Below, in pieces: positions 1 through 19,819 of a stretch of 21,759 nt of DNA. The translations under genes and the position numbers were made by a program. Each line of letters opens with the position of its first letter. The stretch's first letter is position 1. The stretch comes from a virus. Below the pieces are notes generated by a model. That model was not told the origin of the DNA. It worked only from the letters and a program-made list of their open reading frames with translations, and ran no database searches. The stretch lies in the IMG/VR virus record IMGVR_UViG_3300025712_000424, positions 1 through 21,759 of that record. One strand, written 5' to 3'.

Positions 1-1062
1 AGATAAAGCATAACTCCCGAGAGTCAAAGAAGCAACCAAAGGTATTTGAACAACCAGAGGACTTCGATATACTATCAATACCAACAATAGACCAAGCACC
101 AGACTGGAAATTATTTCTGCGAGCAGTACTAGCGATGGACGACTAATTACAGTCCCATCTAGCATTGTTTGTAATATGTTTGCTTGAATCTCGTGAGGGA
201 GTTTTGCTCCATATGGAGTATTCACTTGAGGTACGATGCCTTCTGCGGATACACCCATGATCACTGCTTTGCCTGATAGATCGGGCAGGGTATCTTTACC
301 CAATTCATAACTGTCAAAGTGATACTTGTAATCTATGTACACTCTTCCATTGCTGTCTGTTATGATCTTATCGTAAGGTGGTATTCTGAATGCTTCTATT
401 CCTAATTCATTTACAAAGACCTGATAAGAGGGTTCTCCTGTGAGGTTTCTTAACATCTCTAAAGCAAAAGAAGGATAGATCTTATCGTTTACATTAATTG
501 ATACAGGAACTTGTCTTACTTTACCATCTACATCATTGGGTGCCACAGCAACACCTACACCAAAGGCATTGTCTTCGAATATTTCTAGATTGGTGACTAT
601 CCCTGGATAGTTATAAAGATAAGGTAGAGCATCTCCACCTATGGTACCTGTTCCTACATGAGGTGCCTTACTATCTAAACCTTTGATTGAAGGCATTTGT
701 GATAGAACAACCCCACCATAAGGAAAGACTGATGATAAGAACTCATCATCGGTTGGGTTTGATGGATTTGCGAAAGTCGTATTGATTCCTAGTACAAAAC
801 CACCAGAATTAAATGTCTCAATTACATAGTTTCCGAGAACACTTCTATTAATAGGATAACCTGTATTTTGTAATGTGGTTTCACCTATCTCTAGTAGAAC
901 TATCTGATCACTATGCACTGGTTCAGTTGACATTATGTAATCAAACCAATTGAGTCGCAAAGTTTCTACTGGGACTGGATCAGATACTCTTAAAGCAGTC
1001 AATCCACCCAAAACTAATAAGCACATCCACCAAGATGTTAAAATCTTAGCAAATTTGTTCAT
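1..1062 (-). CDS. CHASE2-domain membrane protein (C-terminus outside the window)
   Basis: Open from ATG at 1062 to the window edge, 354 codons without a stop. An N-terminal hydrophobic segment (about residues 7-24) is followed by a long extracytoplasmic-type region (about 30-310) that reads as a CHASE2 sensor domain: an early LRLNWFDY stretch, a central IGGDALPYLYNY block and a late KAVIMGVSAEGI strand before another hydrophobic segment (about 315-335). In the family, CHASE2 is a periplasmic ligand-sensing domain, usually followed by transmembrane helices and a cyclase, kinase or phosphatase; any output domain here is beyond base 1. Bacterial CHASE2 genes often neighbour FecR-domain genes, as here. 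There is no Shine-Dalgarno, and a late-promoter-like AATAAATA ends five bases before the ATG. Domain call fairly sure; ligand and output unknown. Confidence 0.8.
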   Translation of the reverse strand, partial: MNKFAKILTSWWMCLLVLGGLTALRVSDPVPVETLRLNWFDYIMSTEPVHSDQIVLLEIGETTLQNTGYPINRSVLGNYVIETFNSGGFVLGINTTFANPSNPTDDEFLSSVFPYGGVVLSQMPSIKGLDSKAPHVGTGTIGGDALPYLYNYPGIVTNLEIFEDNAFGVGVAVAPNDVDGKVRQVPVSINVNDKIYPSFALEMLRNLTGEPSYQVFVNELGIEAFRIPPYDKIITDSNGRVYIDYKYHFDSYELGKDTLPDLSGKAVIMGVSAEGIVPQVNTPYGAKLPHEIQANILQTMLDGTVISRPSLVLLAEIISSLVLGLLLVLIVYRSPLVVQIPLVASLTLGSYALS

Positions 1063-1067
1063 AAGGT

Positions 1068-1075
1068 TATTTATT
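1068..1075 (-). promoter_or_regulatory. T4-late-like promoter AATAAATA in front of the CHASE2 gene
   Basis: AATAAATA on the minus strand matches 7 of 8 bases of the T4 late promoter TATAAATA. It is separated from the ATG at 1062 by five bases (ACCTT), the same spacing as the exact late promoter at 7287-7294. Transcription would start at or next to the start codon, giving a leaderless message. In an AT-rich genome one such match could be chance; the matched spacing is the argument for it. Confidence 0.4.
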
Positions 1076-1103
1076 AGATTCTAAAATTGACTATATACTT
1101 ATA

Positions 1104-1140
1104 TTACGATTCTGAAACTTTTAAGTTACGAATCTGAAAC
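1104..1140. repeat. Tandem 15-base direct repeat in the spacer upstream of the CHASE2 gene
   Basis: TTACGATTCTGAAAC (1104-1118) and TTACGAATCTGAAAC (1126-1140) differ at one base and lie 22 bases apart start to start, about two helical turns. A weaker relative, TACGAATATACAAAC, begins near 1153. The repeats occupy the only non-coding stretch of the left part of the window (1063-1217) and could be an operator for the CHASE2 gene. No known binding site was recognised. Confidence 0.45.
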
Positions 1141-1217
1141 GAATTATGATACTACGAATATACAAACGATTTGACAAATTAATGAAAGTCTCCAGAATAC
1201 AAAAAGTCTGGAAAATC

Positions 1218-1700
1218 TCACTCAAATAATTTATACTTAAACTCTAGTGACACTTCATGCCTTTCTGTATTGAAAAGGTATTCATTGTGCACGACTACAC
1301 TCCATTGCATCGTATTAATGAATCTAAGGTACTTGATTCTAAACTCATCATCCATGTAATCTATAGAATTTTTTATATACCAACCTGCAAAAATCTTCGT
1401 TAAGAGTACTCTCTGTCGATCAGGATTAGTTTTAAATAGAGGATTGCCCTCTTTGAGATTACAAGTAAACTCTTCAATGCATTTCTTTAATCTTTTGGTT
1501 TGATGATGATCTATTGCGGATGCAATAAGATATTTCTTATATAGTCTCTTACTTGTTCTGGACCATGAGGTCTGATCAACTCTATAGTTGTCTATATAAT
1601 TTTTCTTCACAGGCAAAGGCAAAGAGATTAATATCTCCTCAACCTGTGCGTGTAAAAAGAGTGGCAATGCTAGAACTAAGGTAAACAAAGTTCTAGTCAT
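1218..1700 (-). CDS. Secreted protein of unknown function in the curli-like cluster
   Basis: 160 residues. A clear signal peptide (MTRTLFTLVLALPLFLHAQ, cleavage near residue 18) predicts export to the periplasm. The mature part is basic, rich in Tyr and Lys, with two cysteines (about C74 and C80), and has no motif I recognise. Its ATG overlaps the TAG that ends the -1 reading frame at 1693-1854 (ATGACTAG), so translation is probably coupled to that frame rather than to the zero-frame lipoprotein stop 145 bases upstream. Position between the lipoprotein and the CHASE2 gene suggests a periplasmic accessory of the curli-like system, which is inference. Confidence 0.75.
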   Translation of the reverse strand: MTRTLFTLVLALPLFLHAQVEEILISLPLPVKKNYIDNYRVDQTSWSRTSKRLYKKYLIASAIDHHQTKRLKKCIEEFTCNLKEGNPLFKTNPDRQRVLLTKIFAGWYIKNSIDYMDDEFRIKYLRFINTMQWSVVVHNEYLFNTERHEVSLEFKYKLFE

Positions 1701-1854
1701 CGCAATACTCTGGGTTGTTAGAACAATAGAATTTAACTGCGTTCAGCATAAACATCATTTCGTCTTGCGTTAAATCTCCATCACCCTTGACATTCCTAGC
1801 ATCCTTTTTAGGGGATGCAGGAGTTTGTCTTTGGGGTGGAGTTCTTACTTTCCC
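1693..1854 (-). CDS. -1 frame extension of the lipoprotein gene, EF-hand/dockerin-like
   Basis: After the heptamer GGGAAAG (1854-1848) the -1 frame is open for 51 codons, from GTA at 1848 to TAG at 1693-1695. It cannot be a separate full gene: the frame is closed upstream by TAA and has no ATG, GTG or TTG until ATG-ATG about 22 codons before its end. The sequence looks coding. It has a Pro/Lys linker, then a 12-residue calcium-loop pattern NVKGDGDLTQDE (D5, G6, hydrophobic 8, E12) as in EF-hands and dockerins, a short helix and a CSNNPEYC tail with two cysteines. Its stop overlaps the next gene's ATG. Joined by frameshift, the product would be a 145-residue lipoprotein with a Ca-binding tail. 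A single-base assembly error would give the same picture. Confidence 0.65.
   Translation of the reverse strand, partial: GKVRTPPQRQTPASPKKDARNVKGDGDLTQDEMMFMLNAVKFYCSNNPEYCDD
1795..1821 (-). other. Hairpin downstream of the slippery site
   Basis: On the minus strand CCTGCATCC pairs with GGATGC-T-AGG: nine base pairs with one bulged T around an eight-base loop (CCTAAAAA). It begins 26 bases after the heptamer, further than the usual 5-9 base spacing of a frameshift stimulator, so a role in frameshifting is possible but not strongly supported. There is no T-tract, so it is not an intrinsic terminator. Confidence 0.4.
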
Positions 1855-2129
1855 TCTTTGGATTCTGGTTTAGACTGTAGTTCGTCTGTCTGTTTGTCGA
1901 CTTCCTCAACTACTGTTTCGACTACACCACCAACTGCTGTTGATGCTGTGGAAACGATGCTTGCTGCATCTTCTAATACTGCTTGTCCAACACCACCGAC
2001 AGTGCCGACAGTCGCATCGATAACACCTGTAGAAAGTTCTTTACCACCTTCTATAACTGCACCAACTGATGCGCATGATTGAACAAATAGTCCAAGAATC
2101 AATATGCTTATTGTATACAATTTAAACAT
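1845..2129 (-). CDS. Small lipoprotein of the curli-like cluster (zero-frame product)
   Basis: 94 residues. The start is set by AAAAGGAG five bases before the ATG at 2129; an upstream in-frame ATG at 2153 would run through this Shine-Dalgarno. The signal sequence MFKLYTISILILGLFVQSC ends in a lipobox (VQS|C19), so the mature protein should be lipid-anchored. The rest is a small-residue, glycine-zipper-like segment (GAVIEGG, TVGGVG, TAVGGV) and a charged tail ending SKPESKEGK. The final codons contain the slippery heptamer G GGA AAG just before TAA, so a fraction of ribosomes may read on into an EF-hand-like extension. No homology recognised; not an obvious CsgE or CsgC. Confidence 0.75.
   Translation of the reverse strand: MFKLYTISILILGLFVQSCASVGAVIEGGKELSTGVIDATVGTVGGVGQAVLEDAASIVSTASTAVGGVVETVVEEVDKQTDELQSKPESKEGK
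1848..1854 (-). promoter_or_regulatory. Candidate -1 programmed frameshift site GGGAAAG
   Basis: The zero frame reads GAG GGA AAG TAA, so the heptamer is G GGA AAG, the X XXY YYZ form. GGGAAAG is the slippery sequence known from the lambda tail assembly chaperone G/GT. Slippage gives GGG AAA GTA and enters a frame that is open to the next gene's start codon. Seen: heptamer, phase, adjacent stop and open -1 frame. Inferred: that slippage happens in vivo. Confidence 0.65.
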
Positions 2130-2142
2130 AATATCTCCTTTT

Positions 2143-2190
2143 GAGTTTTTCAACTCTAGTTAACTCGTAATGTGCTCTCTAAGAGAGTAC
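2143..2190 (-). other. Two small hairpins between curlin-like 2 and the lipoprotein gene
   Basis: In the 90-base spacer the minus strand can form GAGTT-GAAA-AACTC (2156-2143, GNRA-type tetraloop), sitting just upstream of the lipoprotein's AAAAGGAG. It can also form GTACTCTC-TTA-GAGAGCAC (2190-2172, one mismatch). Neither is followed by a T-run on the minus strand, so they are not terminators. They could tune translation or protect mRNA ends after the structural-subunit gene. Confidence 0.35.
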
Positions 2191-2219
2191 AATACTCCTT
2201 TTTCCTCTTTCCTATGTAT

Positions 2220-3014
2220 TTAGTTGCCTTGTGTCACTGATATCGAACATCCACCAACTGTTTGACAATCTTGCGTAAGAGAATAAGTTTGTGCTGTGGA
2301 TCCTTGTTGAAGCATGTATAAGTCTGTATCATATGTTCCATTTATTGTAACTGTGGCAGTATGTGTCGCACTTCCCTGTTGTATCATATCAACATCATTG
2401 TAACTATTATTGATTGTTAAACTGAGTGTTTTGTCTTGGTTGCTTTCTTGTCTTGTGTACACATCGTTATAATCACCATAGATATAGGTGATGTTTGAAT
2501 GTTCGTGTCCTGAGTTATTTGCTCGTTGACTTCCCAAAAACTTATTGTTAGAACCATGAATATCTAATCGTGTAAAATGCCCACCATATTCATAATCATC
2601 AATTGCTAACAATGTGCCTGAACTTGTTACATGATATCCTTGATAGAAGTCTACATCATTACTATTGCCTGCGATATGAAATTCAAATCTATCACTCCCA
2701 CAGGATGATCCTTGATTACATGTTTGTACAATTTTTAGATTATTGTAATCGCCATCTAAATCTCCACCCCAACTTAAACCTGAACCCCATAATGTAGTGT
2801 AACCAACATATGCACTATTGCCTTGTTGTGTTATGTCAACTACATTATTGGCACCACCCACACTAAAATCTACTTTGCTGTTGTATCCTGTTTGGTTTAT
2901 GGTGAGATCAAAGTTGTTACCCACTTGATTCATATAGATTTCATTATCTTGTGCTATTAGTAATGAAGCATAAGATGCTAAAATCATCCAACCAATAATA
3001 AGCAATTTGTCCAT
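2220..3014 (-). CDS. Curlin-like amyloid subunit 2 (CsgA/CsgB family)
   Basis: 264 residues with a signal peptide ending near residue 21 (SLLIAQ|DN). The mature protein is built of degenerate curlin repeats, the N-x5-Q-x-G-x-x-N pattern: IYMNQVGNNFDL, LTINQTGYNSKV, VDITQQGNSAYV, VDMIQQGSATHT, YMLQQGSTAQ. It is Asn/Gln/Gly/Ser rich and nearly free of Lys and Pro. The first two repeats closely match those of curlin-like 1 (4110-4829), so the two are paralogues. Unlike E. coli CsgA it has cysteine-bracketed loops (CNQGSSC, CQTVGGC). The start overlaps the FecR stop (TAATG) behind AGGAAGG. It should be exported by the CsgG/CsgF pair upstream. Whether it forms fibres on the host, or is a virion or lysis component, cannot be told from sequence. 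Confidence 0.82.
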   Translation of the reverse strand: MDKLLIIGWMILASYASLLIAQDNEIYMNQVGNNFDLTINQTGYNSKVDFSVGGANNVVDITQQGNSAYVGYTTLWGSGLSWGGDLDGDYNNLKIVQTCNQGSSCGSDRFEFHIAGNSNDVDFYQGYHVTSSGTLLAIDDYEYGGHFTRLDIHGSNNKFLGSQRANNSGHEHSNITYIYGDYNDVYTRQESNQDKTLSLTINNSYNDVDMIQQGSATHTATVTINGTYDTDLYMLQQGSTAQTYSLTQDCQTVGGCSISVTQGN

Positions 3015-4150
3015 TATCCTTCCTGTTTTATAATTATGTTAATAGAACCACCTTCGTTCACTGTAATCTCACTGGTAGCACCTGAGTTGTTGGTGGCATT
3101 GATAGTAGCATTTGCTTCCATACTCATTTTTATCGATAACACACCACCAGCATCTCTAAAGAATGTCACTGTACCTGAACCCTGATCGATAAAAGTATTG
3201 AAGTTGGTGACTTTGTCAAATCCTGGAGCAATTGTCCCTTTGATAAAAGAACCATCTCCCGATTTGTTTTGAGAGCCACCACCTTTCTGTCTTTGTATTT
3301 CAATATTTTCTAATACTTCTAATACATCTTGAAGTAAATCAACATCAAGTAAGTCAATATCTAATTCAGTAAACTCTAAACTGTCTTCTGTTAATTCTGG
3401 ATCTTCTTCTAATAAGTTTTCTTCTAGTAGATCTATATCTAATATTCCACCATCTGAAGAATCACTCGAAGACATCTCTTCTTGCTGTTTTGCTATTTCT
3501 TTTGGTGGCGAAACTATAAACATGTTATCAATTAGATTCATGTCTATATCTAAAGTTGTTGGTGGAGTTGGACTCGTTTCTATATTCGGAGTCATTGTTG
3601 CTTGATATGCCTCGTTAAGAGTCACACTACCACCAGCAGTCGTCACCAATATCTCACCAGATGCGTTTCCGTTTTCATCTGGTAATAGTATGATGAGAGA
3701 TCTTCCTATCTCATCTACTGTTGTTGTAAAGTCTGTTCCCCTAATTGCTATATTTGCAGATGGGGTAGTAATATTTATATTTTGTTTGGGCACCAACCCA
3801 ATCTTTCCTGTAGCAAATCTTGCTGTGCCTGATGCGAATCGCATAGACATTTTGCTTTTACTAGGATTTGGATCGTAGACAACTTCGTCTATGATCACTT
3901 TGCTGTGTTCTGTAAGTTTAAGAGTGGTATCGTCTATGAAGGTAACTTCTAATCTACCCTTCCCTGTACGCACATCATCATTGGAGAGTATATCAAATTC
4001 CAACTCTGGATCATATTGCTCTGCTGTTCGCAAAACCTTAGATCCAGAGCCAGACATGTCTGTAATATCCCCAATCGGTGAGGCATACGCACTCCCAACT
4101 AGCAGTGTGCTAGTCAGCAGTATCTTGTTGAGTGATTGCAATAACTGCAT
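3014..4150 (-). CDS. FecR-domain periplasmic protein
   Basis: 378 residues. A signal peptide (cleavage near GSAYA|S24) is followed by a FecR domain at about residues 55-145, with DDVRTGKGRLEVTF, SGTARFATG and the family's typical TPSANIAIRGTDF. FecR domains are best known from periplasmic regulators of TonB systems and are also found alone beside CHASE2 genes. Residues 233-285 form an acidic LDIDLL-type repeat region (LDIDLLEENLLEED, ELDIDLLDVDLL), which may bind calcium or act as a spacer. The C-terminal 80 residues are Gly/Asn/Ser rich and beta-like. It sits between the two curlin-like genes with overlaps at both ends (41 bases upstream, TAATG downstream), so it is part of the same system, perhaps a scaffold. 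There is no clear Shine-Dalgarno at the ATG, consistent with coupling. Confidence 0.85.
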   Translation of the reverse strand: MQLLQSLNKILLTSTLLVGSAYASPIGDITDMSGSGSKVLRTAEQYDPELEFDILSNDDVRTGKGRLEVTFIDDTTLKLTEHSKVIIDEVVYDPNPSKSKMSMRFASGTARFATGKIGLVPKQNINITTPSANIAIRGTDFTTTVDEIGRSLIILLPDENGNASGEILVTTAGGSVTLNEAYQATMTPNIETSPTPPTTLDIDMNLIDNMFIVSPPKEIAKQQEEMSSSDSSDGGILDIDLLEENLLEEDPELTEDSLEFTELDIDLLDVDLLQDVLEVLENIEIQRQKGGGSQNKSGDGSFIKGTIAPGFDKVTNFNTFIDQGSGTVTFFRDAGGVLSIKMSMEANATINATNNSGATSEITVNEGGSINIIIKQEG

Positions 4151-4829
4151 TATCTGATGTCACGTCTAAATCAATGTGCCCATAACAAGAAGTAACTCCT
4201 GTTGGACATGTCCCTGATTTTTGTATAATATCTAAATCACCACTGCCACCATCAAAGTCAACTGTTTGATATTGATAAGCACCATCTGTTTGACTTGACA
4301 CGATGTCATTATCTGAACCATCAACTTCCCAATCCCATGTAGCATCGTCAACTTCTACATCTATATCAAATGTATTAGTAGATCCTGTTAAGATTAGGTC
4401 AAAATCAAATCTTTCTGCTGAGGTCACATAACCCCAGTCTAAGTCCCAAGTGTTTGAATCTCCTGTAGCACTCAGATCAAAATCTGAACTGTCTGTACTT
4501 CCAAGATATCCTATATTCCAGTCTAAAACATTTGAGTCACCAGTGAACAAAGTTGTGAAACTTGAACTATCTGATTTAAGTGGACCATAAAGAATATTAC
4601 TATTACCTATTTGGTCTATATCAATATTTAAACTAGAACCTGTTATAACCATATCGGCAGCAGTTGAACTAAAGTCATTGCCTCCGATTTTATTCCCATA
4701 ACCTGTTTGTTGAATGTTCAGGTTAAGAGTATCACCAACTTGCTCTATGAAGATTTGGTTGTCAGATGTACTTTGCGCATAAGTTCCTACTGACACGAGT
4801 AGTATTACTAAAGATGTTAAAAATTTCAC
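4110..4829 (-). CDS. Curlin-like amyloid subunit 1 (CsgA/CsgB family)
   Basis: 239 residues. It starts at GTG, not ATG: GTGA overlaps the CsgG stop and AGGAG lies seven bases upstream. The signal peptide ends near GTYAQ (residue 19). Curlin-type repeats are clear at the N-terminus (IFIEQVGDTLNL, LNIQQTGYGNKI, IDIDQIGNSNIL) and degenerate into Asp/Ser/Thr/Trp-rich strands such as SNTWDLDWGY and TNTFDIDVEV. The C-terminus carries a CPTGVTSC loop and ends VIAITQQDTAD. It is very acidic, with many aspartates, compared with E. coli curlins. The N-terminal 25 mature residues match curlin-like 2. One of the two may act as nucleator and the other as main subunit, but sequence alone does not say which. 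Confidence 0.8.
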   Translation of the reverse strand: MKFLTSLVILLVSVGTYAQSTSDNQIFIEQVGDTLNLNIQQTGYGNKIGGNDFSSTAADMVITGSSLNIDIDQIGNSNILYGPLKSDSSSFTTLFTGDSNVLDWNIGYLGSTDSSDFDLSATGDSNTWDLDWGYVTSAERFDFDLILTGSTNTFDIDVEVDDATWDWEVDGSDNDIVSSQTDGAYQYQTVDFDGGSGDLDIIQKSGTCPTGVTSCYGHIDLDVTSDNAVIAITQQDTAD

Positions 4830-5731
4830 CTTTTTTCTCCTGTTTCGTTATCGGCATCCACTTGAGGGAGTCTCCTCCAATAACCTCGTTCTTCCCCTTG
4901 TAATATAATACTAAAGACTGCCTCCTCAATGGCAGTTCGTACAGCATAGGTCACACTCTCATTCTCAGAGATTCCATCTTCTATTTCGACTAATTTAGTG
5001 TCGGTATCTACGAATCGAAAAACATCGAATCCTTGAGCAACACTTAAAACAGTTTTGTATGACTGGACATTCATAAGAACTTCTCCAGTTGACACACTAA
5101 CTGCTCGCAGAGATATTATAACTGCATCTCTACGATATTGTTGGCTGGCACCGACACCTAAGTATCTGGCACCATTACCACCTGTTTCTATGTTCGTATC
5201 ATATCCGATGATTCCTCCCTCGAATATCATACCAGCAAATAACATTGGTTGAATGACTTCTTTATCATCATTCATATCTAAGTAAGTTTGGCGAGTTGAT
5301 TTAACAATCTGTCTTTCTCTTACTAAGTGATCTAATCCTGTTCTTTCTACAACTCTAAACCATTTGCCATCACCTGCTGCTTTGAGTGCATCAATCAATA
5401 AAGATTCTGCACCTTGTGTCACAGCAGTTGAAAAGTCAGCAATGTTTTGTTTAGACTTTCTTTGCCCTGTTAGATCATTAAACTTATAAACTGCGACCAC
5501 TGGTTGCTGATAGGGTGGTCTTAATAGTTTTAATTTTTTATGTGTAGGCAACTCAACATTTGTTGGACCTTCTACACAAGGGATAAATTGCTCATAGGTA
5601 GAACCATAGATATCTTTCACTTGGAACTTACCATCTGCCTCTACGCAATCTAATACTCTAGGATTGGGCATTGATGCACAACCTGATAGAATAAGAATAA
5701 CTGCTAGGAGGACTTTAACCACCGATGCCAC
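4826..5731 (-). CDS. csgG: CsgG-like outer-membrane curli secretion channel
   Basis: 301 residues. Lipoprotein signal with lipobox LSG|C18, then a longer N-terminal region than E. coli CsgG (277 aa), then the CsgG domain from about residue 77: PVVAVYKFNDLTGQ, the FSTAVTQGAE helix, WFRVVERTGLDHLVRERQI, the membrane-strand region EGGIIGYDTN, GGNGARYLGVG, and VSTGEVLMNVQSYKT. CsgG forms a nonameric outer-membrane pore for curlin subunits. In the constriction loop the E. coli Phe56 is kept (DFSTAV), Asn55 is Asp, and Tyr51 appears absent, so the pore lining differs. GTG start at 5731 overlaps the CsgF stop; AGGA lies seven bases upstream. A second GTG at 5722 with AGGTGG is an alternative. No CsgE is visible. 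Confidence 0.93.
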   Translation of the reverse strand: MASVVKVLLAVILILSGCASMPNPRVLDCVEADGKFQVKDIYGSTYEQFIPCVEGPTNVELPTHKKLKLLRPPYQQPVVAVYKFNDLTGQRKSKQNIADFSTAVTQGAESLLIDALKAAGDGKWFRVVERTGLDHLVRERQIVKSTRQTYLDMNDDKEVIQPMLFAGMIFEGGIIGYDTNIETGGNGARYLGVGASQQYRRDAVIISLRAVSVSTGEVLMNVQSYKTVLSVAQGFDVFRFVDTDTKLVEIEDGISENESVTYAVRTAIEEAVFSIILQGEERGYWRRLPQVDADNETGEKR

Positions 5732-6227
5732 CTATAGTTCCTGCACCCACTGGTATAGTAATTGTAGTGGTAGATCCTTCAGAATCGACGATAGTCAATA
5801 TGATAACTTCATCTCCTGCTACACATCCTGTCATGTCACCCATACAGATTCCTGTTTCATATGTGACAGTGTTGCCTTCTATAAGGAATGTACCAAAAGT
5901 AGACCCCTCTCCACTAAAGAGTGCCTCTACTAAGTCTTTACTGATTTGTGAGTAGATTCTAGATTCTAAGTTTCTCATAAACTTAGCAAGAGTTGAATTT
6001 TCCGCATCTCTTTCTGCTTGTCTTATCGCAGCATCTATATCTTCTTGTATCTTATCTCTTCTTGCTTTCTCTTGGTTATCAATCGTTAGATAATGTGAAG
6101 ATGTACCAACTCCACTAAATGATGGATTTTTAAATTGTTGTACTAATTGATCTGCTGTGAGTCCTACCATAAAGAATGGTATTACTAGAGCAATCAGTTT
6201 ATTTACTAGATTTATTTTTCGATGCAT
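5715..6227 (-). CDS. csgF: CsgF-like curli assembly factor
   Basis: 170 residues from ATG at 6227, chosen because GAAGGA lies seven bases upstream and a signal peptide follows directly (IALVIPFFMVGLTA). The mature N-terminus DQLVQQFKNPSFSG matches the CsgF signature (F-x-NP-x-F-G) that inserts into the CsgG pore. The second half also aligns: SRIYSQISKDLVEAL with the E. coli SQILGGLL region, and EVIILTIVDSEGSTTTITIPV with its final strands. It is longer than E. coli CsgF (138 aa): a charged helix (about 52-90), a CMGDMTGC loop and a Gly-rich tail. In the family, CsgF couples secretion to nucleation at the cell surface. Its start overlaps the preceding membrane-protein gene by 29 bases and its end overlaps csgG by 17. 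Confidence 0.85.
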   Translation of the reverse strand: MHRKINLVNKLIALVIPFFMVGLTADQLVQQFKNPSFSGVGTSSHYLTIDNQEKARRDKIQEDIDAAIRQAERDAENSTLAKFMRNLESRIYSQISKDLVEALFSGEGSTFGTFLIEGNTVTYETGICMGDMTGCVAGDEVIILTIVDSEGSTTTITIPVGAGTIGGIGG

Positions 6228-6498
6228 TCTGTTTTCCTTCTTCGAGTATTTTTTGTCTTTCACGATATTCAAGTACAACATTGACTTTTTGTTGTAATCG
6301 TATCAGATCTTGATCAAGCATTCTTGTTTGATCTATCACTCGAATTAGTGCAAAGTGCATCTTTTCGATTTGGGGTTCTATCTCTTCCGAGATAAAATTC
6401 CACACAAAGTATACAAAGTATCCCAAACCTGCCATCATGACAGCAGGGAAACCATATTGACCTATAAGGTCAACGAGTAATGAAGTTTGTTCTTCCAT
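6199..6498 (-). CDS. Small membrane protein with coiled coil, holin-like (second copy)
   Basis: 99 residues. One transmembrane helix (about 12-38: IGQYGFPAVMMAGLGYF and on) is followed by a long charged amphipathic helix (about 40-85) and a Lys/Asn-rich tail. Size and order resemble BhlA/UviB-type phage holin-like proteins. It shares its N-terminal plan with the product of 6663-6959 (L-x-x-x-G-x-x-G-x-P, then a Gly-Phe membrane helix), suggesting a duplicated pair. Its ATG directly follows the TAA of the 54-codon gene. Holin function is inference; no endolysin gene is in the window. Confidence 0.65.
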   Translation of the reverse strand: MEEQTSLLVDLIGQYGFPAVMMAGLGYFVYFVWNFISEEIEPQIEKMHFALIRVIDQTRMLDQDLIRLQQKVNVVLEYRERQKILEEGKQNASKNKSSK

Positions 6499-6663
6499 TT
6501 AATCTGGCAACTCCAGTTTCTTTAATACTTCTGCGATTGCCATTACTTCTTCGACATTAACTGCCTGTTCTGGTATCGTTGCTGGTGTAACAACAACCTC
6601 TTCCTCTACGACTTCTTCATTGCAGAGTGCAAAGTATAATAATCCTATAACTAAAAATTCCAT
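6499..6663 (-). CDS. Small acidic single-span membrane protein (54 aa)
   Basis: 54 codons. ATG at 6663 overlaps the preceding stop (TAATG) with AGGAG six bases before it; TAA abuts the next ATG. It begins with a short hydrophobic segment (MEFLVIGLLYFALC), then an acidic, valine-rich stretch (EEVVEEEVVV) and a helical end. This tight stop/start packing on both sides and the good Shine-Dalgarno support a real gene. Function unknown; by company it belongs with the two holin-like proteins. Confidence 0.7.
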   Translation of the reverse strand: MEFLVIGLLYFALCNEEVVEEEVVVTPATIPEQAVNVEEVMAIAEVLKKLELPD

Positions 6664-6959
6664 TAATCTCTCCTAGCATCAACTTTGCCGTCTTCGACAA
6701 AATTTTCTGCTCTTGCAACTCTATCGATATCTGGTCTCAAGTCCAAGGCACTACTGACTAACAAATCAATCTTTGTCATTTCGTTTGCCATAGTTCTTGC
6801 TCTATTTTCTAAGGACTCACAAAACATAGTTAGGGTTGCGATCGAATCAACAATCCCCTGCATAATCTGTTTCATGACTAAGAAGATAAAGAACCCCATT
6901 ACCAATGCCATGGCAATTGGGACTCCTAGATCACCTACTAATATGAAAAAACTTTCCAT
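6663..6959 (-). CDS. Small membrane protein with coiled coil, holin-like (first copy)
   Basis: 98 residues. N-terminal membrane helix (about 5-33: GDLGVPIAMALVMGFFIFLV), then an amphipathic helical region to about 75 and a charged tail. The layout matches 6199-6498, with the 54-codon gene between them. The ATG lies inside the end of the Fe-S carrier gene (29-base overlap). Likely inner membrane; a holin or membrane-scaffold role is inferred only from size and topology. Confidence 0.65.
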   Translation of the reverse strand: MESFFILVGDLGVPIAMALVMGFFIFLVMKQIMQGIVDSIATLTMFCESLENRARTMANEMTKIDLLVSSALDLRPDIDRVARAENFVEDGKVDARRD

Positions 6960-7281
6960 TCTCTATTCCATTTATTGTAAAGGATTCACCACAACCACAG
7001 GTTGCCTCTGTATGAGGGTTCACAAAGTCGAACCGACTGTTCAGACCTTCTGTGATATAATCTAAAGTCATCCCTTCTAAGTGAGGAGCAGATAATTTGT
7101 CGATGGCAACTTTGAATTTACCATAATCTATAATCTGATCACTCTCTTCTATTTGGTAAAGAAAATCAAATACATACTTCCAGCCATTACAACCTGCAGG
7201 TTGAAGTCCTAATCTGACTCCTTCTTTACCTTTTGTCTTGTCTAACAAAACTTCGATTGCCTTGTCAGTAATTTCAATCAT
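6931..7281 (-). CDS. A-type Fe-S cluster carrier (IscA/ErpA/HesB family)
   Basis: 116 residues, the usual length of the family. All three cluster-binding cysteines are present: C31 in LQPAGCNGW, and C95 and C97 in CGCGESF. Proteins of this family accept and deliver Fe-S clusters during assembly. HesB/IscA homologues are recurrent host-like genes in marine T4-like phages, possibly supporting Fe-S enzymes or virion iron during infection. The C-terminus runs 15 residues past CGCGESF. It is the first gene behind the exact late promoter TATAAATA, which ends only five bases before its ATG, and no Shine-Dalgarno is seen, so leaderless translation is predicted. Family confident; target proteins unknown. 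Confidence 0.9.
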   Translation of the reverse strand: MIEITDKAIEVLLDKTKGKEGVRLGLQPAGCNGWKYVFDFLYQIEESDQIIDYGKFKVAIDKLSAPHLEGMTLDYITEGLNSRFDFVNPHTEATCGCGESFTINGIENGKFFHISR

Positions 7282-7286
7282 ACTTC

Positions 7287-7294
7287 TATTTATA
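7287..7294 (-). promoter_or_regulatory. T4-type late promoter TATAAATA
   Basis: Exact match to the T4 late promoter, which is read by gp55 with gp33 and the gp45 clamp. It lies in the only non-coding gap here, just after the intrinsic terminator of the upstream unit (7315-7343). The five-base spacing to the ATG at 7281 puts transcription start at the start codon. No terminator is seen between here and about 1217, so this promoter probably drives the Fe-S carrier, the small membrane proteins and the whole curli-like cluster late in infection. Confidence 0.75.
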
Positions 7295-7314: not shown

Positions 7315-7343
7315 AAAAAAAAGGGAGCATTAATGCTCCCTTT
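7315..7343 (-). terminator. Intrinsic terminator ending the replication gene unit
   Basis: On the minus strand GGGAGCATTAATGCTCCC is a perfect palindrome (7-bp stem, TTAA loop, extended by three A-T pairs) followed by eight T residues (7322-7315). It starts 18 bases after the stop of the EF-hand gene. On the plus strand only three T residues follow, so it is a one-way terminator for the leftward transcript. Confidence 0.92.
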
Positions 7344-7361: not shown

Positions 7362-7646
7362 TTAATCTACGAGATCTTTGAATGCTTCAAGGATCTTTGC
7401 TTTTGTATCTCTAGCACCAACTACTAATTTCTCTTTCTTTGCGAGTTTTAGTAATTCTGCTTTGGTTTTCTTTTTGAGATCAGCCAATTTGAACTTAGCA
7501 GTTGCAACTGCAACTTTCGCATCATCTAAATCAACATCACCATCTTTGTCTAGATCAAAAGTAGACGTACCTGTGGATGATTTGCTATACAAATGCATGC
7601 CACCAGCCAATACTACTATTGCTAGAATAAAAATCAAAAATTCCAT
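7362..7646 (-). CDS. Membrane-anchored EF-hand protein with SAP/Rho-N-like tail
   Basis: 94 residues with AGGAG eight bases before the ATG. An N-terminal membrane helix (about 3-20, MEFLIFILAIVVLAGGM) leads to a full EF-hand loop at 31-42 (DLDKDGDVDLDD: Asp at 1, 3, 5, Gly 6, hydrophobic 8). After a helix comes a Lys-rich two-helix segment, about 56-92 (KKTKAELLKLAKKEKL, TKAKILEAFKDL), that resembles SAP or Rho N-terminal domains. Such domains bind nucleic acid in other proteins, but that is only suggestive here. Last gene before the terminator. A second EF-hand-like loop is in the frameshift extension near 1780. Confidence 0.75.
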   Translation of the reverse strand: MEFLIFILAIVVLAGGMHLYSKSSTGTSTFDLDKDGDVDLDDAKVAVATAKFKLADLKKKTKAELLKLAKKEKLVVGARDTKAKILEAFKDLVD

Positions 7647-7670
7647 TTTGGTTTCTCCTAAGGTTAGTTA

Positions 7671-7862
7671 TTATCCAAGTAAAGGATTCTTCTCTTTTGC
7701 CTTACCAAAGTTAAGAGCGAACAAGTCGATAACTTTGTATAGTTTAGCAAATAAGACGTCGTCCTTCGGTGTAGGTGTCATTGCAGCAACTGCTGAACAC
7801 ACTGTTACAATTACAGGCAACTGTTGTACAATTGCCCAGATTGTTCCGATTAGATCTAACAT
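7671..7862 (-). CDS. Small membrane protein (63 aa), conserved-looking
   Basis: 63 residues with AGGAG seven bases before the ATG. A hydrophobic N-terminal helix (about 3-27) is followed by TPTPKDD and an amphipathic helix (LYKVIDLFALNFGKAKEK). This TPTPxDD...IDxxALNxGKAK pattern resembles small membrane proteins of phages, as far as I can judge by eye. It follows regA by two bases. Function unknown; one membrane span plus an amphipathic helix is compatible with holin-like or membrane-remodelling roles. Confidence 0.65.
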   Translation of the reverse strand: MLDLIGTIWAIVQQLPVIVTVCSAVAAMTPTPKDDVLFAKLYKVIDLFALNFGKAKEKNPLLG

Positions 7863-7864
7863 AT

Positions 7865-8293
7865 TTAGTCTCCTGTTGACTCAACATCAACTTTATTGCC
7901 GATGTTGTACTTCGGCACTAGACTCCATAATGTCTTCTCTTTGAATGGTATGATTTTGATTTGCGATAGTGGTGCTATTGGTTCTTCTATTTTAGAGAGG
8001 TCCACAATGCTAATCAATCCCCATTCTGCTAATAATTTTGAGATAGAGTTTCTTCTACCTATATCATTCTCACTAATGTCTGTGTCTTTTCCATCTAGTT
8101 TGAACAGTTCTTTAAAGTGTACTATAAAATACTGTCCTCTTTTATGTAATATATGACAGGATTGAAATAGTGTTTTGTCCTTCCTAGAAGCAACACCAAT
8201 CCGTGTCAAGGTTTCTTTTACTTTTAAAAAATCATCTGATTGTTTCAGTTTGATCTCTAGTAAGTCGGAAACCTCATTCTTTAGTTCTTCCAT
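7865..8293 (-). CDS. regA: RegA translational repressor
   Basis: 142 residues; T4 RegA has 122. The core is strikingly like T4: DDFLKVKETLTRIG, KDKTLFQSCHILHKRGQYFI, VHFKELFKLDGK, RRNSISKLLAEWGLI, and LVPKYNIGN near the C-terminus. RegA binds translation initiation regions of early phage mRNAs, including those for gp44, gp45, gp62 and itself, and represses them. There is a ten-residue N-terminal extension (MEELKNEVSD) relative to T4 and a short C-terminal tail. ATG lies 20 bases inside the gp62 gene behind AGGTGGG. The order gp45-gp44-gp62-regA is the T4 order, but gene 43 polymerase does not follow. Confidence 0.93.
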   Translation of the reverse strand: MEELKNEVSDLLEIKLKQSDDFLKVKETLTRIGVASRKDKTLFQSCHILHKRGQYFIVHFKELFKLDGKDTDISENDIGRRNSISKLLAEWGLISIVDLSKIEEPIAPLSQIKIIPFKEKTLWSLVPKYNIGNKVDVESTGD

Positions 8294-8669
8294 GGTTTAT
8301 CCCACCTTTGTCCATTGTTTGATTCATTTTCAATATTGAATCGTCATCAAGGAGGGATAGATACTCTTCTGCTTTTTTGGAAGACACACCATAATACTCT
8401 TTAACGACATTCAAATCTTTTAATTCGATAGATTTTTCCCATTTGGAAAATCTTTTTCGCTGTCTAAGAGTATTTATTAAAAATTGAAACTGAAGACGAT
8501 GATCCAGGTGGTATCGACTGTTCATTTCATTTGCGAATAACACAGCATCTTGGTGATATGATAATGCTTTGTTAGTTAGAAAAGGGTTGTATGCTTTCTC
8601 TGCAATGCTATCAGGCATCACATCTTGCTTGGTATAACTGACTGCTGTTACGAAATCAAATGGGTTCAT
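8274..8669 (-). CDS. 62: Clamp loader small subunit, T4 gp62-like
   Basis: 131 residues. It begins MNPFDFVTAVSYTKQD and contains YNPFLTNKALSYHQDAVLFA-NEMN, HLDHRLQFQFLIN and LRQRKRFSKWEK, which match gp62 of marine T4-like phages. T4 gp62 itself is longer (187 aa). One gp62 with four gp44 subunits forms the loader that opens the gp45 clamp. ATGA overlap with the upstream gene at 8666-8669 indicates coupling. Identification rests on motif memory and on position between gp44 and RegA. Confidence 0.88.
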   Translation of the reverse strand: MNPFDFVTAVSYTKQDVMPDSIAEKAYNPFLTNKALSYHQDAVLFANEMNSRYHLDHRLQFQFLINTLRQRKRFSKWEKSIELKDLNVVKEYYGVSSKKAEEYLSLLDDDSILKMNQTMDKGGINHGRTKE

Positions 8670-8950
8670 GATGGATCAAATCCTGCTGTGATGTCTGCTA
8701 TCACTTGATTCATTTTAATTCCGACTCTTTCGAGATAAGATTTCTTTGATTCATTATTGCCTTCGGGAAGAATGGTTTGTACTTCTTTTGTTGATAGATT
8801 CTCTCTAATAATTTTGCCATCATTGTAGACCACATCAAAGTATTTGACATCATCTTGTGGATATGCGTGAATCAGTTTGACTTTAGATGCCCATTCTTCA
8901 ATCTCGATCTGTTTTCGTCTCTGTTCTACTTTATCTGAATGCTGTCCCAT
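8666..8950 (-). CDS. Unknown conserved-looking phage protein in the replication block
   Basis: 94 residues from ATG at 8950, chosen because it overlaps the stop of the SDR gene (TAATG). A longer frame from 9031 would run 80 bases into that gene. Sequence: a charged N-terminal helix (HSDKVEQRRKQIEIEEWASK), then a beta-like stretch (VKYFDVVYNDGKIIRENL) and a helical end. No motif recognised. It is inserted, with the SDR, between gp44 and gp62, which are adjacent in T4. Confidence 0.7.
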   Translation of the reverse strand: MGQHSDKVEQRRKQIEIEEWASKVKLIHAYPQDDVKYFDVVYNDGKIIRENLSTKEVQTILPEGNNESKKSYLERVGIKMNQVIADITAGFDPS

Positions 8951-9672
8951 TATTTCTCGACCATTAATTTTCCATACTCTTCCAGTATATAGTTCGCACA
9001 AGCACGTGGTGATAGTAAACCTGATCCCCACATATTGACTTCTCTGTCAACAGAATCATCAACTTTCCATTGTTCTAAACTTGTTCCTTCAAGAACACGA
9101 TTCGTGATGGTTGGGTCCGCAACTCCTATTGCGTCAGGTGGTATTGGATCCAACCATACGAACTTTCTCTCGGGATTTTCATACTGAGCACGAGCAACTA
9201 GTATTTGCTGTGCTGCTTTGCATGAAGAGATAGCAAATCGAGCAACTCTTTTGTCACTCTCTCTTGCATTTGGTAAATTCAAATTGGCAGGTACTGTACC
9301 TGATCCAAGATGAACTACTTTTGTATTGACCCATTGTAGATAAACTTTCTGAAACAGTTCTAGATATCCTACAACATTTGCTCTTAGCATTTCTTCAAAA
9401 TCAAAAAGACTTTGTTCACCGATGGGGTTTCCTAGTCGACCTAGATCCATTGGTGAGGATGCCTTGTTCCATTTCACTGCACAGTTAAATGCTACATCGG
9501 GTTCTGGTTCTAAAGATAGTCGTTGGATTGAAACAGGATCAGTCAGATCTAATTCAAGCAAATCCTCTGTTGGAGTAGAGGAAGTCCCTTGGACATAATG
9601 TCCTAAGGATAGCAACTCATCATAAAGTGCCTTTCCGATACCTGTTCTCGCACCAACGACTAGAAATCTCAT
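8950..9672 (-). CDS. SDR-like NAD(P)-binding protein, catalytic Tyr not conserved
   Basis: 240 residues. The Rossmann N-terminus MRFLVVGARTGIG carries the SDR glycine motif (GxxxGxG). DLTDP, FNCAV (NAG-like) and a LRANVVGYLELFQ helix follow in SDR order. At the active site the lysine is present in FAISSCKAAQQI, but the residue four before it is Ile, not Tyr, and HLGSG supplies the Ser region. So it binds a dinucleotide probably without classical SDR catalysis, or uses another residue. It overlaps gp44 by ATGA. A role in replication is not suggested; nucleotide-sugar or cofactor modification is possible. A second SDR lies at 13826-14473. Confidence 0.75.
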   Translation of the reverse strand: MRFLVVGARTGIGKALYDELLSLGHYVQGTSSTPTEDLLELDLTDPVSIQRLSLEPEPDVAFNCAVKWNKASSPMDLGRLGNPIGEQSLFDFEEMLRANVVGYLELFQKVYLQWVNTKVVHLGSGTVPANLNLPNARESDKRVARFAISSCKAAQQILVARAQYENPERKFVWLDPIPPDAIGVADPTITNRVLEGTSLEQWKVDDSVDREVNMWGSGLLSPRACANYILEEYGKLMVEK

Positions 9673-10607
9673 TTAAATGCACACTCCGACATAATCTCAG
9701 TTAAGCAGGCAACCAAGTTAATCTCGGCATCTGCTACGAATGCATTCTTATATTGATAGTCAGCAATCAACAATACTGCTGCTGGTATTGATTCTGCTTT
9801 TAGTTTACTCTCTAAAGAGTTAAAGATCTTTCTATATAGTAAGATAGGGTCTTGATCAGCATTTTGGGCAATCCATTTACGCATCTCACCCCACTTACGA
9901 TTTTCCATGGCACTCATTAATTGAGCGATCTTTTCTTCTGCCATGTTGGTTAAAATACCTGAATCTATAACTCCAGAACTAGAGTATCTCTGTAGTTCGT
10001 TGAGTATCCTGCGGAAGTCTGGGAAGTGTTTGTTGACCAACTCTGCTACCACCTCCTTAGAGTAGTCGATTTCCTCAGTCTCTAATATGTGGCACACTCT
10101 TTTAAAGAATGCACCAGCAATAGCAGGTTTGTCGTCGTTTGCTACTTTAAAATCTATCACTGTACATCTAGAATGTAGAGGTTCAATAATCCTGTTCTTG
10201 TAATTACAAGTAAAGATAAATCTACAGTTAGAACTGAACTCTTCGATAAATCCTCGAAGAGCAGGTTGTACAGATTCAGGTGACATATAATCTGCCTCGT
10301 CAAGTATTACGATCTTAGAGTTTCCACCCAAAGATACTGTAGAGGCAAAGTTCTTAATCTTTGTTCGTAAGGTATCGATCAATCTTCCTTCATCGGAACC
10401 ATTGATCACTATGTAGTCTGCACCAATTTCATTACAAAGTGCTTTGGCGATGGTAGTTTTACCTGTACCAGCAGTTCCACATAAAAGCAGATTGCTGATT
10501 TCACCTTTAGCAACAAAGTCTTTAAAGGTAGACTTAATGCTTTCTGGTAGCACTACATCTTCAATATTGCTTGGTCGGTATTTTTCGACCCAAATAAATT
10601 CATTCAT
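9669..10607 (-). CDS. 44: Clamp loader large subunit, T4 gp44-like AAA+ ATPase
   Basis: 312 residues; T4 gp44 has 319. WVEKYRP start typical of clamp loader subunits, Walker A GTAGTGKT (44-51), Walker B IVILDEAD (99-106), arginine-finger SRC (146-148), then the lid and collar helices. Four copies with one gp62 load gp45 onto primer-template DNA, which supports replication and, in T4, late transcription. Start at 10607 has GGGAG eight bases upstream. It follows a 118-base structured spacer after gp45. Confidence 0.96.
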   Translation of the reverse strand: MNEFIWVEKYRPSNIEDVVLPESIKSTFKDFVAKGEISNLLLCGTAGTGKTTIAKALCNEIGADYIVINGSDEGRLIDTLRTKIKNFASTVSLGGNSKIVILDEADYMSPESVQPALRGFIEEFSSNCRFIFTCNYKNRIIEPLHSRCTVIDFKVANDDKPAIAGAFFKRVCHILETEEIDYSKEVVAELVNKHFPDFRRILNELQRYSSSGVIDSGILTNMAEEKIAQLMSAMENRKWGEMRKWIAQNADQDPILLYRKIFNSLESKLKAESIPAAVLLIADYQYKNAFVADAEINLVACLTEIMSECAFK

Positions 10608-10725
10608 AAAACTTCTCCCGAGTTAAGATGAAACAATCCCCACCAATTGTTTCCGTGATGCCTGCCCAGAGGACGGATAAGAGGAGGACATCTCCCGAAT
10701 CAAACTGTTAAAGTCTGATTCTTTT
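10608..10725 (-). ncRNA. GC-rich structured spacer between gp45 and gp44 (candidate RNA element)
   Basis: 118 bases. By hand count about 36 of the 64 bases at 10638-10701 are G or C, well above the surroundings. On the minus strand two hairpins form. GAATCAGAC/GTTTGATTC (10721-10697) has 9 bp with one G·U, which would be A·C on the plus strand. GAAACAAT/ATTGTTTC (10653-10630) has 8 perfect pairs around TGGTGGGG. Between them GATG/CATC and CCGT/ACGG pairings are possible. TCGGGAGA occurs at both ends (10698-10691 and 10621-10614), the second serving as the gp44 Shine-Dalgarno. A 22-codon ORF (10691-10623) is present, but its GGGAG touches the ATG. It could be a leader controlling gp44, a small RNA or a mini-peptide. 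No known Rfam family was recognised. Confidence 0.4.
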
Positions 10726-11388
10726 TTAAGCATTATATTTGGAATCTGGTTCCAATGCTATAAAGTATTCTACATCGAGTGTTGAATGTTTAAAATGTGA
10801 GATGTTTTTACTAGATACAAACACATTGTAATCTCCATTCAACAGTTTAAGATTCTCGATCTTAAAATTCATCTTGTATTTAGTACCATCACCATCGGCA
10901 ACGATTCTGCTAAACACATTAGAGGTGGTGTTCTTTTTATCTCTTACAGATAACCTTACCACTGCCCCATCTGATTCTAGAATCAAATCACTGACACCTA
11001 ATACTGCTGATGCTTTTCCAACAGCATCTCTAACTTGCTGTGTTAGAGTAAAGGTAATCTCAGGTTCTGGAAAGTTAATATCCTTCTGAGGTGAGATAAC
11101 AGTATTCTCTGCAGCAAAAAAGTAAACCATGCTAGAGTTAGCATCTGATATTACCACTGAAGAGTCACCAAACTCATATTCCGCATCTTCGAATAAAGAT
11201 GTCGCACCTAAAAATTCTGAGAGGTCATAAATGGCGAAGTCGTTATAACTTTCAGAAACTGTTGCTTTTGCCATGATGTTTTTCATCGCAGATATAGTTC
11301 TGAATGTTTTGCCTTCTTTTACAACTATCCCAGAGTTGATTGTAGAAAAGTTCTTAAGAACCTCTCTTGTATTTTCACTTATCTTCAT
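10726..11388 (-). CDS. 45: Sliding clamp, T4 gp45-like
   Basis: 220 residues; T4 gp45 has 228. The start MKISENTREVLKNFSTIN at 11388 is preceded by GGGAGG; a longer frame from 11496 adds 36 unrelated residues and is rejected. Gp45 features include the FAIYDLSEFLG strand-helix, ALEPDS near the C-terminus and two-domain spacing. The trimeric clamp tethers DNA polymerase and, in T4, activates late promoters of the TATAAATA type found at 7287-7294. It overlaps the DUF3310 gene by 14 bases. Followed by the structured spacer and then gp44. Confidence 0.92.
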   Translation of the reverse strand: MKISENTREVLKNFSTINSGIVVKEGKTFRTISAMKNIMAKATVSESYNDFAIYDLSEFLGATSLFEDAEYEFGDSSVVISDANSSMVYFFAAENTVISPQKDINFPEPEITFTLTQQVRDAVGKASAVLGVSDLILESDGAVVRLSVRDKKNTTSNVFSRIVADGDGTKYKMNFKIENLKLLNGDYNVFVSSKNISHFKHSTLDVEYFIALEPDSKYNA

Positions 11389-18487: not shown

Positions 18488-19777
18488 TTATCCAAAAAAT
18501 GATTCTAATGTGTTTCGTTCGTTATCAGCAGGGAAACCATGATAGACTAAGTAATCATCCCACTCTTGTTCATCCCACATTGATGGTGAGATACCATTCC
18601 ACAATGGTCTCCAGTGTTCATGCTCTTTGTTGTTCTTTCTTTCATAAACATACTGCTTTCTGAGTTGCTCATATTCAAAAGAACCTGCCTCTAGCATCTT
18701 CTCTCTGAAATAACAAACGATTGACATTCTTTCAAATCCATCGTCACCGATGATCTCAGTGTTTCCATGAATGCCCTCATGATTATTTATAAGCAACAAA
18801 TCTCCAGGACGAATGTTGATTGCCACTCTAAATTCTGGTAGCACTAGATATCCACCTTTGAAATCCTTTCCATTAGTAAGACAACATAAATTAGAGAAAC
18901 CTGAACTCAAATCGCCAGCATCTCTATGGGCAGCAGTTCTAAATGTTTTGTTCACAGTCGCAGTGGTAAACACTGTATCTGAGATTAAGAACTTAGGATC
19001 TAGTCTGTCAGCATGTGATCTTTGTGATGCATATCTTTCTGGTAATAGATCTTGAAAATAGTTATCAAGTTTGTTTAAAAATGGAAATGCCATCTTAAAC
19101 TTCTCAGGGTTATGCTCTGTAAATGATGTGGGTCTGCAATAAGGTATTCTTGGATATCTATCAAAGAAACCTGCGATACCACTATACACTGCTTGAGCAT
19201 ACGATGTTTCTGAGATGTATTCACTTGCTATCTTTGTAGCATATGCATTAGCATCTTCAGGACTCATGGCTCTGAGTTTAGCAAGTATTTGATCAAAGAA
19301 TCCTTCATATTCAAAATCTGGATCATCTTTGATTTTGTTTCTCAACCAAACCATACCTCGAGTGGGTACAGAATCATCATCTTTCCACTTCTCAAGTATT
19401 TGATCAACAGGATCTTCATCAAACAATGAACTACCACCTGACATGAAGTGGTCGAGTAATTCTAGTTGACAATCTGTCACCCAGTCTCTATTACCCTCTT
19501 TTTCACCTCTTGGTCCAGCAGCAAGACCTCTGTTGTGTGTTTGACCTGCTGCCTCAATCAGACCATTATAGCAGTCTTCCATCTCTGTAGCAGTGAACAC
19601 ATTCTTTCTAAATTTGAACATGATGTTTGCTTCTGATCTTTCATCAGTTAGAGTTGGTGGAGCATAAAAATCTGTATCTGATTCGACTACTAAGTCAAAG
19701 TGTGATTCATCCAGGAACTTACCTAATAGATGCTCACAATCGTGTTTACTTTTTGCTTGTATTACTTCTACTGTCAT
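18488..19777 (-). CDS. TET/JBP-like 2OG-Fe(II) dioxygenase
   Basis: 429 residues. The C-terminal half carries a TET/JBP-type double-stranded beta-helix: FRTAAHRDAGDLSSGF with ligands H284 and D286, GGYLVLPEFRVAI, RPGDLLLINNHEGIHGNT with H337, and R350 as likely 2OG contact. In the family these enzymes oxidise 5-methylcytosine or thymine in DNA. Phage members often sit with glycosyltransferases, and one lies directly upstream here (19820-20644). The N-terminal 200 residues are acidic and not recognised. No DNA methyltransferase or thymidylate-modifying gene is in the window, so the base substrate is open. ATG is six bases after a -10 (TACAAT), so leaderless. Confidence 0.75.
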   Translation of the reverse strand: MTVEVIQAKSKHDCEHLLGKFLDESHFDLVVESDTDFYAPPTLTDERSEANIMFKFRKNVFTATEMEDCYNGLIEAAGQTHNRGLAAGPRGEKEGNRDWVTDCQLELLDHFMSGGSSLFDEDPVDQILEKWKDDDSVPTRGMVWLRNKIKDDPDFEYEGFFDQILAKLRAMSPEDANAYATKIASEYISETSYAQAVYSGIAGFFDRYPRIPYCRPTSFTEHNPEKFKMAFPFLNKLDNYFQDLLPERYASQRSHADRLDPKFLISDTVFTTATVNKTFRTAAHRDAGDLSSGFSNLCCLTNGKDFKGGYLVLPEFRVAINIRPGDLLLINNHEGIHGNTEIIGDDGFERMSIVCYFREKMLEAGSFEYEQLRKQYVYERKNNKEHEHWRPLWNGISPSMWDEQEWDDYLVYHGFPADNERNTLESFFG

Positions 19778-19783
19778 ACCTAT

Positions 19784-19812
19784 ATTGTATCCGATAATTG
19801 TGGTGTTGTAAA
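19784..19812 (-). promoter_or_regulatory. Early-type promoter (divergent copy 4) for the TET/JBP-like operon
   Basis: TTTACAACACC (-35 block, 19812-19802), 17-base spacer, -10 TACAAT (19789-19784), six bases, ATG at 19777. The -35 block shares TTTACRACACC with the other three copies, but the spacer differs and it is closer to plain sigma70. It begins directly after the stop of the glycosyltransferase gene. Confidence 0.75.
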
Positions 19813-19819
19813 GTGGGTT

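Follow-up and report, generated by a model that had tools for sequence, protein, structure and literature searches.

A curli-type gene module in a T4-like phage fragment: a probable late operon with a leading membrane pair and a candidate frameshift lipoprotein

What would a phage gain from genes for curli export? Phage modules of this kind are widespread in the sea and have lacked an explanation since 2020, and one of them lies in the 21.8 kb virus record IMGVR_UViG_3300025712_000424 (positions 1 to 21,759, the whole of which is called the window here), where a curli-type cluster runs entirely on the minus strand with tightly overlapping genes. Operons of csgF and csgG were described in pelagimyophages by Zaragoza-Solas et al. 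2020 (PMC7029224); the original prediction for this DNA was right that such clusters are common there and lack an explanation. CsgA/B, FecR, a cyclase and 'HK' genes appear as one module of podo- and myophages in Wittmers et al. 2022 (PMC9599517), and csgGF were reported in the Methylophilales phage Melnitz by Buchholz et al. 2022 (PMC9004378). The phage curli module is already published; what we add is its leading membrane pair with its phage specificity, the statistics of a late promoter, and a frameshift lipoprotein.

Our main conclusion, to which we give a probability of roughly 0.6, is that the cluster is a late phage operon building a surface-fibre exporter for curlin-like proteins in the infected cell. 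Its central parts are the following:
5715-6227, minus strand: CsgF homologue with signal peptide (PF10614, 5.7e-12), overlapping csgG
4826-5731, minus strand: CsgG homologue, outer-membrane export channel lipoprotein (PF03783, 2.9e-50)
4110-4829, minus strand: CUR1, the first of two secreted curlin-like subunits (beta-solenoid model, Curlin_rpt matches in the family, motif count)
3014-4150, minus strand: FECR, secreted FecR-domain protein (PF04773, 1.9e-11)
2220-3014, minus strand: CUR2, the second secreted curlin-like subunit (profile match to the CUR1 family, motif count)
7287-7294, minus strand: octamer TATAAATA of the T4 late promoter type, 13 nt upstream of an IscA-like gene
7315-7343, minus strand: intrinsic-terminator-like hairpin (GGGAGCATTAATGCTCCC followed by T8) ending the preceding unit

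Channel, subunits and late promoter

Approximately 100 viral loci were gathered by CsgG and a profile was built for each gene. The order TM2-TM1-csgF-csgG-CUR1-FECR-CUR2-CHASE2, in which TM1 and TM2 are two small membrane proteins, is almost invariant across these contigs, and FECR and CHASE2 occur in nearly every module covered. Since the same order, including the junction that leads from regA to TM2-TM1-csgF, is repeated in many contigs, a chimeric assembly, the artefact against which the original prediction had asked for a check, is excluded. Pfam matches (PF10614, PF03783, PF04773 and PF05226) likewise bear out the CsgF, CsgG, FecR and CHASE2 genes that it had placed in one overlapped run. 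HTVC008M and its metagenomic relatives (PMC7029224) share with the window the order csgF, csgG, curlin-like gene, FecR, second curlin-like gene and CHASE2 cyclase; the module follows regA in the window, whereas it follows gp32 in HTVC008M.

A CsgG channel with an adjacent CsgF, as in a type VIII secretion system (T8SS), is present. The window CsgG is 37% identical to E. coli CsgG, with the lipobox cysteine retained, and 49% identical to that of HTVC008M. CsgF is 21% identical to its E. coli counterpart, and the alignment shows a conserved N-terminal FxNPxFxG segment, of which NPxFxG is shared with E. coli. Compared with the csgBAC/csgDEFG system of E. coli, the window shares CsgG and CsgF; CsgE, CsgC and CsgD were absent from the cluster proteins scanned, the contig being a fragment. 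The window curlins, moreover, have few canonical repeats, and FecR, CHASE2, TM1/TM2 and a lipoprotein are extra. The lack of a CsgE gate among these proteins, and a loop preceding FSTAV that has one residue more than its E. coli counterpart and differs from it, would suit an ungated CsgG that admits nutrients or cofactors, or releases metabolites, as suggested in PMC7029224 and PMC9599517. Such a pore would not account for CsgF, for the pair of curlins or for FECR, however, nor for the conservation of these genes, and we regard it as improbable.

The two curlin-like subunits originally predicted are supported by their homologues, by a motif count and by a structural model. Curlin_rpt is matched by 25 of the 51 members of the CUR1 alignment, and the AlphaFold model of CUR1 is a beta-solenoid (pLDDT 83.7); the window's own CUR1 and CUR2 proteins have no Pfam match. 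Both begin with signal-peptide-like sequences which, together with the export channel, point to exit through the envelope. This argues against a place for CUR1 and CUR2 on virions or in the lysate, as fibres or decoration of the particles, as does the lack of structural genes beside them in the window; late timing, as for virion genes, would fit such a role, which we nevertheless hold to be very improbable.

FECR is laid out as a signal-peptide-like helix, a FecR domain, an acidic linker and, in the AlphaFold model, a C-terminal beta domain. A role as an anti-sigma regulator of iron uptake is doubtful, as neither a cytoplasmic anti-sigma part nor an inner-membrane helix precedes the FecR domain. 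Foldseek matches, given without the aligned residues, were PupR, another anti-sigma sensor domain, and 5ix9, a 'cell surface anchoring domain'; a sequence search of solved structures returned no credible relative.

The timing of expression was examined through the octamer at 7287-7294, which directly follows the terminator-like hairpin and precedes an IscA-like gene that overlaps TM2. Octamers in the window alone (3 against 1.7 expected) are not above chance, and the evidence for a late promoter comes from the conserved position in relatives. The 60 nt before TM2 contain TATAAATA or a cyanophage-type variant in 66 of the 86 distinct upstream regions, against 2.6% expected. The pattern counted included NATAAATA, the published cyanophage late promoter (PMC2984593), and also admitted NCTAAATA, picked after inspection of the sequences; strict TATAAATA alone accounts for 37 of the 86. 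In 36 of the 66 the octamer lies at exactly 13 nt. It is found before neither csgG (0/83) nor FECR (0/79), and TM1, csgF, csgG, CUR1 and FECR together give 4/453. The module is thus probably a late operon, as the original prediction had proposed.

Selection was estimated between the window and the related locus L004, which gave dN/dS values of 0.07-0.16 for the module genes tested and 0.07-0.09 for gp44, gp45 and regA; on these values the module is under purifying selection, and the cluster as a whole looks functional. The dS of CUR2 (window 2220-3014, L004 11696-12490) is 0.24 against approximately 1.0-1.9 in other module genes, which suggests that the second curlin gene recently recombined.

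A membrane pair specific to the phage module

The original prediction had set the cluster at 1-6227. The genes it named do lie there, but the module runs past 6227 into three further genes and the promoter, which all appear to share one transcription unit with it:
6199-6498, minus strand: TM1, paralogue of TM2 (phrog_18771, 1.4e-24), immediately before csgF in nearly all loci
6663-6959, minus strand: TM2, small bitopic membrane protein (phrog_18771, 7e-23), with a conserved C-terminal DGKxDxRRD
6931-7281, minus strand: IscA/HesB-like Fe-S protein (PF01521, 1.3e-16), with a 29-nt overlap with the TM2 gene

TM1 and TM2 are paralogues of 98-99 amino acids (aa), present in essentially every viral module and found in none of the bacterial csg loci examined; the few loci from genome collections that have them carry the whole phage module. 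A very acidic open reading frame (ORF) of approximately 53 aa lies between the two (6501-6663, minus strand). When loci were searched by TM2 only, csgF was present in 64 of the 65 with room downstream. In the exception, L248 (4001-4596 and 7060-8292), no csgF adjoins TM2-TM1 and the contig ends in a partial CHASE2 gene of opposite orientation, so that the pair can stand apart from the other module genes. Four contigs of metagenome-assembled genomes (MAGs) from GTDB (L104, L107, L111 and L179), in bins labelled Sphingobacteriales, Rhodobacteraceae or Pelagibacter, also carry the phage curli module; the 'bacterial' csgG in them is probably phage sequence.

A search of 50,697 phage records placed TM2 and CsgG matches together in HTVC008M and Melnitz only, two stray matches being set aside: one resembling TM2 in Bacillus phage Moonbeam, which runs antisense within another gene (E 0.09) and is taken as chance, and a csgG match in the 1499-base unannotated record of Salmonella phage S.Kent 1-2-1. 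Melnitz has the same order as the window (TM2-TM1-csgF-csgG-curlin-FecR-curlin-cyclase). The paper on this phage (PMC9004378) states that csgA and csgB are absent and proposes lysis, whereas the record annotates two curlin-repeat proteins, which have homologues in the window module.

A lysis device, in which CsgG, perhaps with holin-like TM1/TM2, permeabilises the envelope late and the curlins are secondary, would accord with the late promoter, with the two small single-TM proteins at the head of the operon, and with the pinholin/secretin proposal that Buchholz et al. put forward (PMC9004378). However, 2537 phage records have a gp44 match and only the two cultured phages above have csgG and TM2; as most gp44-bearing phages lack the module, the outer-membrane lysis route raised in the original prediction is disfavoured. 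Moreover, curlins, CsgF and FECR are constrained like csgG, and a bare pore needs none of them. TM1 and TM2 match no Pfam family, those of holins included, and match one PHROG holin only weakly (E 0.04). Lysis is in our view unlikely. An Rz-type i-spanin was rejected on predicted orientation: positive charges flank the helix at its C-terminal side in 82% of TM1 and 95% of TM2, and an N-out/C-in topology is predicted from them.

In PMC9599517, one or two genes always precede csgF in the T8SS, as in the window. To judge by position, TM1 and TM2 are probably the genes named 'histidine kinase' there; they are short bitopic proteins, and none of the 22 alignment members has a HisKA or HATPase Pfam domain.

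A candidate frameshift lipoprotein

Between CUR2 and CHASE2 the window has, unlike HTVC008M, two further genes, the lipoprotein and the secreted protein of the original prediction:
1845-2129, minus strand: LP, small lipoprotein (lipobox ..VQSC), zero-frame product
1848-1854, minus strand: -1 slippery heptamer G GGA AAG directly before TAA
1780-1838, minus strand: stem-loop downstream of the heptamer (75-nt fold of -26.1 kcal/mol, z -3.6 against dinucleotide shuffles)
1693-1847, minus strand: frame -1 extension of LP ending YCSNNPEYCDD (a C-x6-C extension is found in heptamer-bearing homologues)
1218-1700, minus strand: SEC, small secreted protein with no family assigned, its start codon overlapping the end of the LP extension

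Heptamer, downstream structure and a conserved -1 frame, the signs of programmed -1 frameshifting, are all found. A heptamer of the form X XXY YYZ lies in the last two codons of 24 of 64 distinct LP homologues; the background, counted over the last three codons, is 5.3% of the ORFs of the same loci. Each of the 24 homologues with a heptamer continues in frame -1 into an extension that ends in C-x6-C, against 2 of the 40 others (Fisher 1e-15), the extensions being all related, with 19 distinct at <90% identity. A hairpin follows the heptamer in most homologues (mean z -3.2 against simple shuffles), and the extension is constrained (pN/pS 0.29, over 53 non-independent pairs). It cannot well be a separate downstream gene, as in most -1 frames a start codon is either missing ahead of the conserved part or present only inside it; an extension in frame 0 was found in none of the homologues. 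LP is thus apparently made in two forms by -1 ribosomal frameshifting.

Module genes lie nearby in 20 of the 27 heptamer-bearing loci of the LP scan, with LP typically between CUR2 and CHASE2, and a SEC homologue occupies the same place in the relative L263. LP relatives without the heptamer (L293, L298, L311 and similar ones) are often directly followed by a single-TM ORF of 30-40 aa (MEVLIPLGIMVLVIAL...). A limited literature search brought up no earlier description of a lipoprotein frameshift of this kind, and neither it nor the late promoter was found in the passages of PMC9599517 that were consulted. We tentatively suggest, at less than even odds, that the module is a purpose-built late organelle and not merely a borrowed bacterial locus, led by two phage-only inner-membrane proteins and, in one branch, equipped by programmed -1 frameshifting with two forms of LP, the long one with a C-x6-C tail, which would tune or anchor the exported fibre.

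Cyclase, neighbouring genes and proposed function

The last gene of the module is cut by the contig end:
1-1062, minus strand: CHASE2 part of a membrane adenylate/guanylate cyclase (PF05226, 6.8e-26)

The CHASE2 domain predicted originally is present, but the protein continues beyond the contig: the full protein of L263 (681 aa, 91% identical over the visible CHASE2 part) has a Guanylate_cyc domain (PF00211). FecR and CHASE2-cyclase genes stand in conserved order, the cyclase domain being visible only in that relative. FECR and the cyclase might together form a signalling cassette that raises cAMP and reprograms the host, with the curli parts as its trigger; the metal-binding motifs of the cyclase are kept in most relatives, and the near-constant presence of FECR and CHASE2 also speaks for it. 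For the host side we sampled 99 genomes from the family (SAR11) to which a MAG labelled Pelagibacter belongs. The sample has no CsgG of its own, both genomes with CsgG (2/99) having it on contigs with the phage module. Against the cassette, cyclic-nucleotide-binding domains occur in 4/99 of these genomes and class III cyclases in 2/99 (both with the phage module, one more falling below the cut-off), in a family that may not be this phage's host; nor was a cyclic-nucleotide-binding protein found in 11 phage records. If the hosts resemble this sample they are nearly devoid of cAMP receptors, and phage cAMP has no obvious receptor. We find the cassette improbable; the phage cyclase seems to need an explanation other than host control of the CRP type.

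The T4-type replication genes regA, gp62, gp44 and gp45 lie upstream at 7865-11388, on the same strand as the cluster, as had been predicted. A pelagimyophage identity is not supported: gp44 (clamp loader) is 61% identical to that of HTVC008M and also 61% to those of the cyanophages P-SSM4 and P-RSM3, and a host cannot therefore be assigned from it. Two small genes, of 63 and 94 aa, follow regA (7362-7862), the latter with an EF-hand-like DLDKDGDVDLDD motif; their relatives have late-promoter-like octamers upstream in 41/50 and 19/39 cases, respectively. The remaining window genes are CobS-like, peptide deformylase, 2OG-oxygenase, Tet/JBP and TAGT; the Tet/JBP-type 2OG oxygenase adjoins a TET-associated glycosyltransferase-like gene (18488-20644), which suggests DNA base hypermodification in the phage. 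Rfam and tRNA scans of the window gave no match.

What the DNA itself shows is the gene content and order, a late promoter conserved among relatives, purifying selection, channel and subunit homology, and a frameshift signature; fibre formation we infer. CsgG would form a type VIII (curli) channel through the infected cell's outer membrane, with CsgF as surface chaperone, and the beta-solenoid proteins CUR1 and CUR2 would be exported to the cell surface. FECR may be a secreted anchor or nucleator-like partner, not an iron regulator; the short and long forms of LP may serve as an envelope accessory, TM1 and TM2 as phage-specific inner-membrane partners, and the CHASE2 cyclase would sense the periplasm.

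Several points weigh against a fibre exporter. CsgE, on which efficient export depends in E. coli, is missing from the proteins scanned. A Foldseek search with CUR1 gave no solved structure below E 0.001. The last strand of FECR does speak for it, with a curlin-type motif (IxIxQ) in 82 of 83 sequences against 4 of 450 other proteins, but these 83 are related and not independent events, and assignment of its C-terminal domain to the curlins by profile is not supported (hhalign 2.4%, no Pfam match). Finally, no clumping was seen in Melnitz-infected OM43 cells (PMC9004378).

On the fibre-exporter reading, the most likely benefit would be a coat of protein around the infected cell and its debris, altering contact with neighbour cells or rival phages by aggregation, 'sibling capture' or receptor masking, effects that are not separable here. 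Two earlier labels, histidine kinase and iron regulator, are to be doubted. A late operon, a dedicated membrane pair and a frameshift lipoprotein would make the purpose of phage curli modules a testable question, in that they indicate which proteins to tag and when to look.

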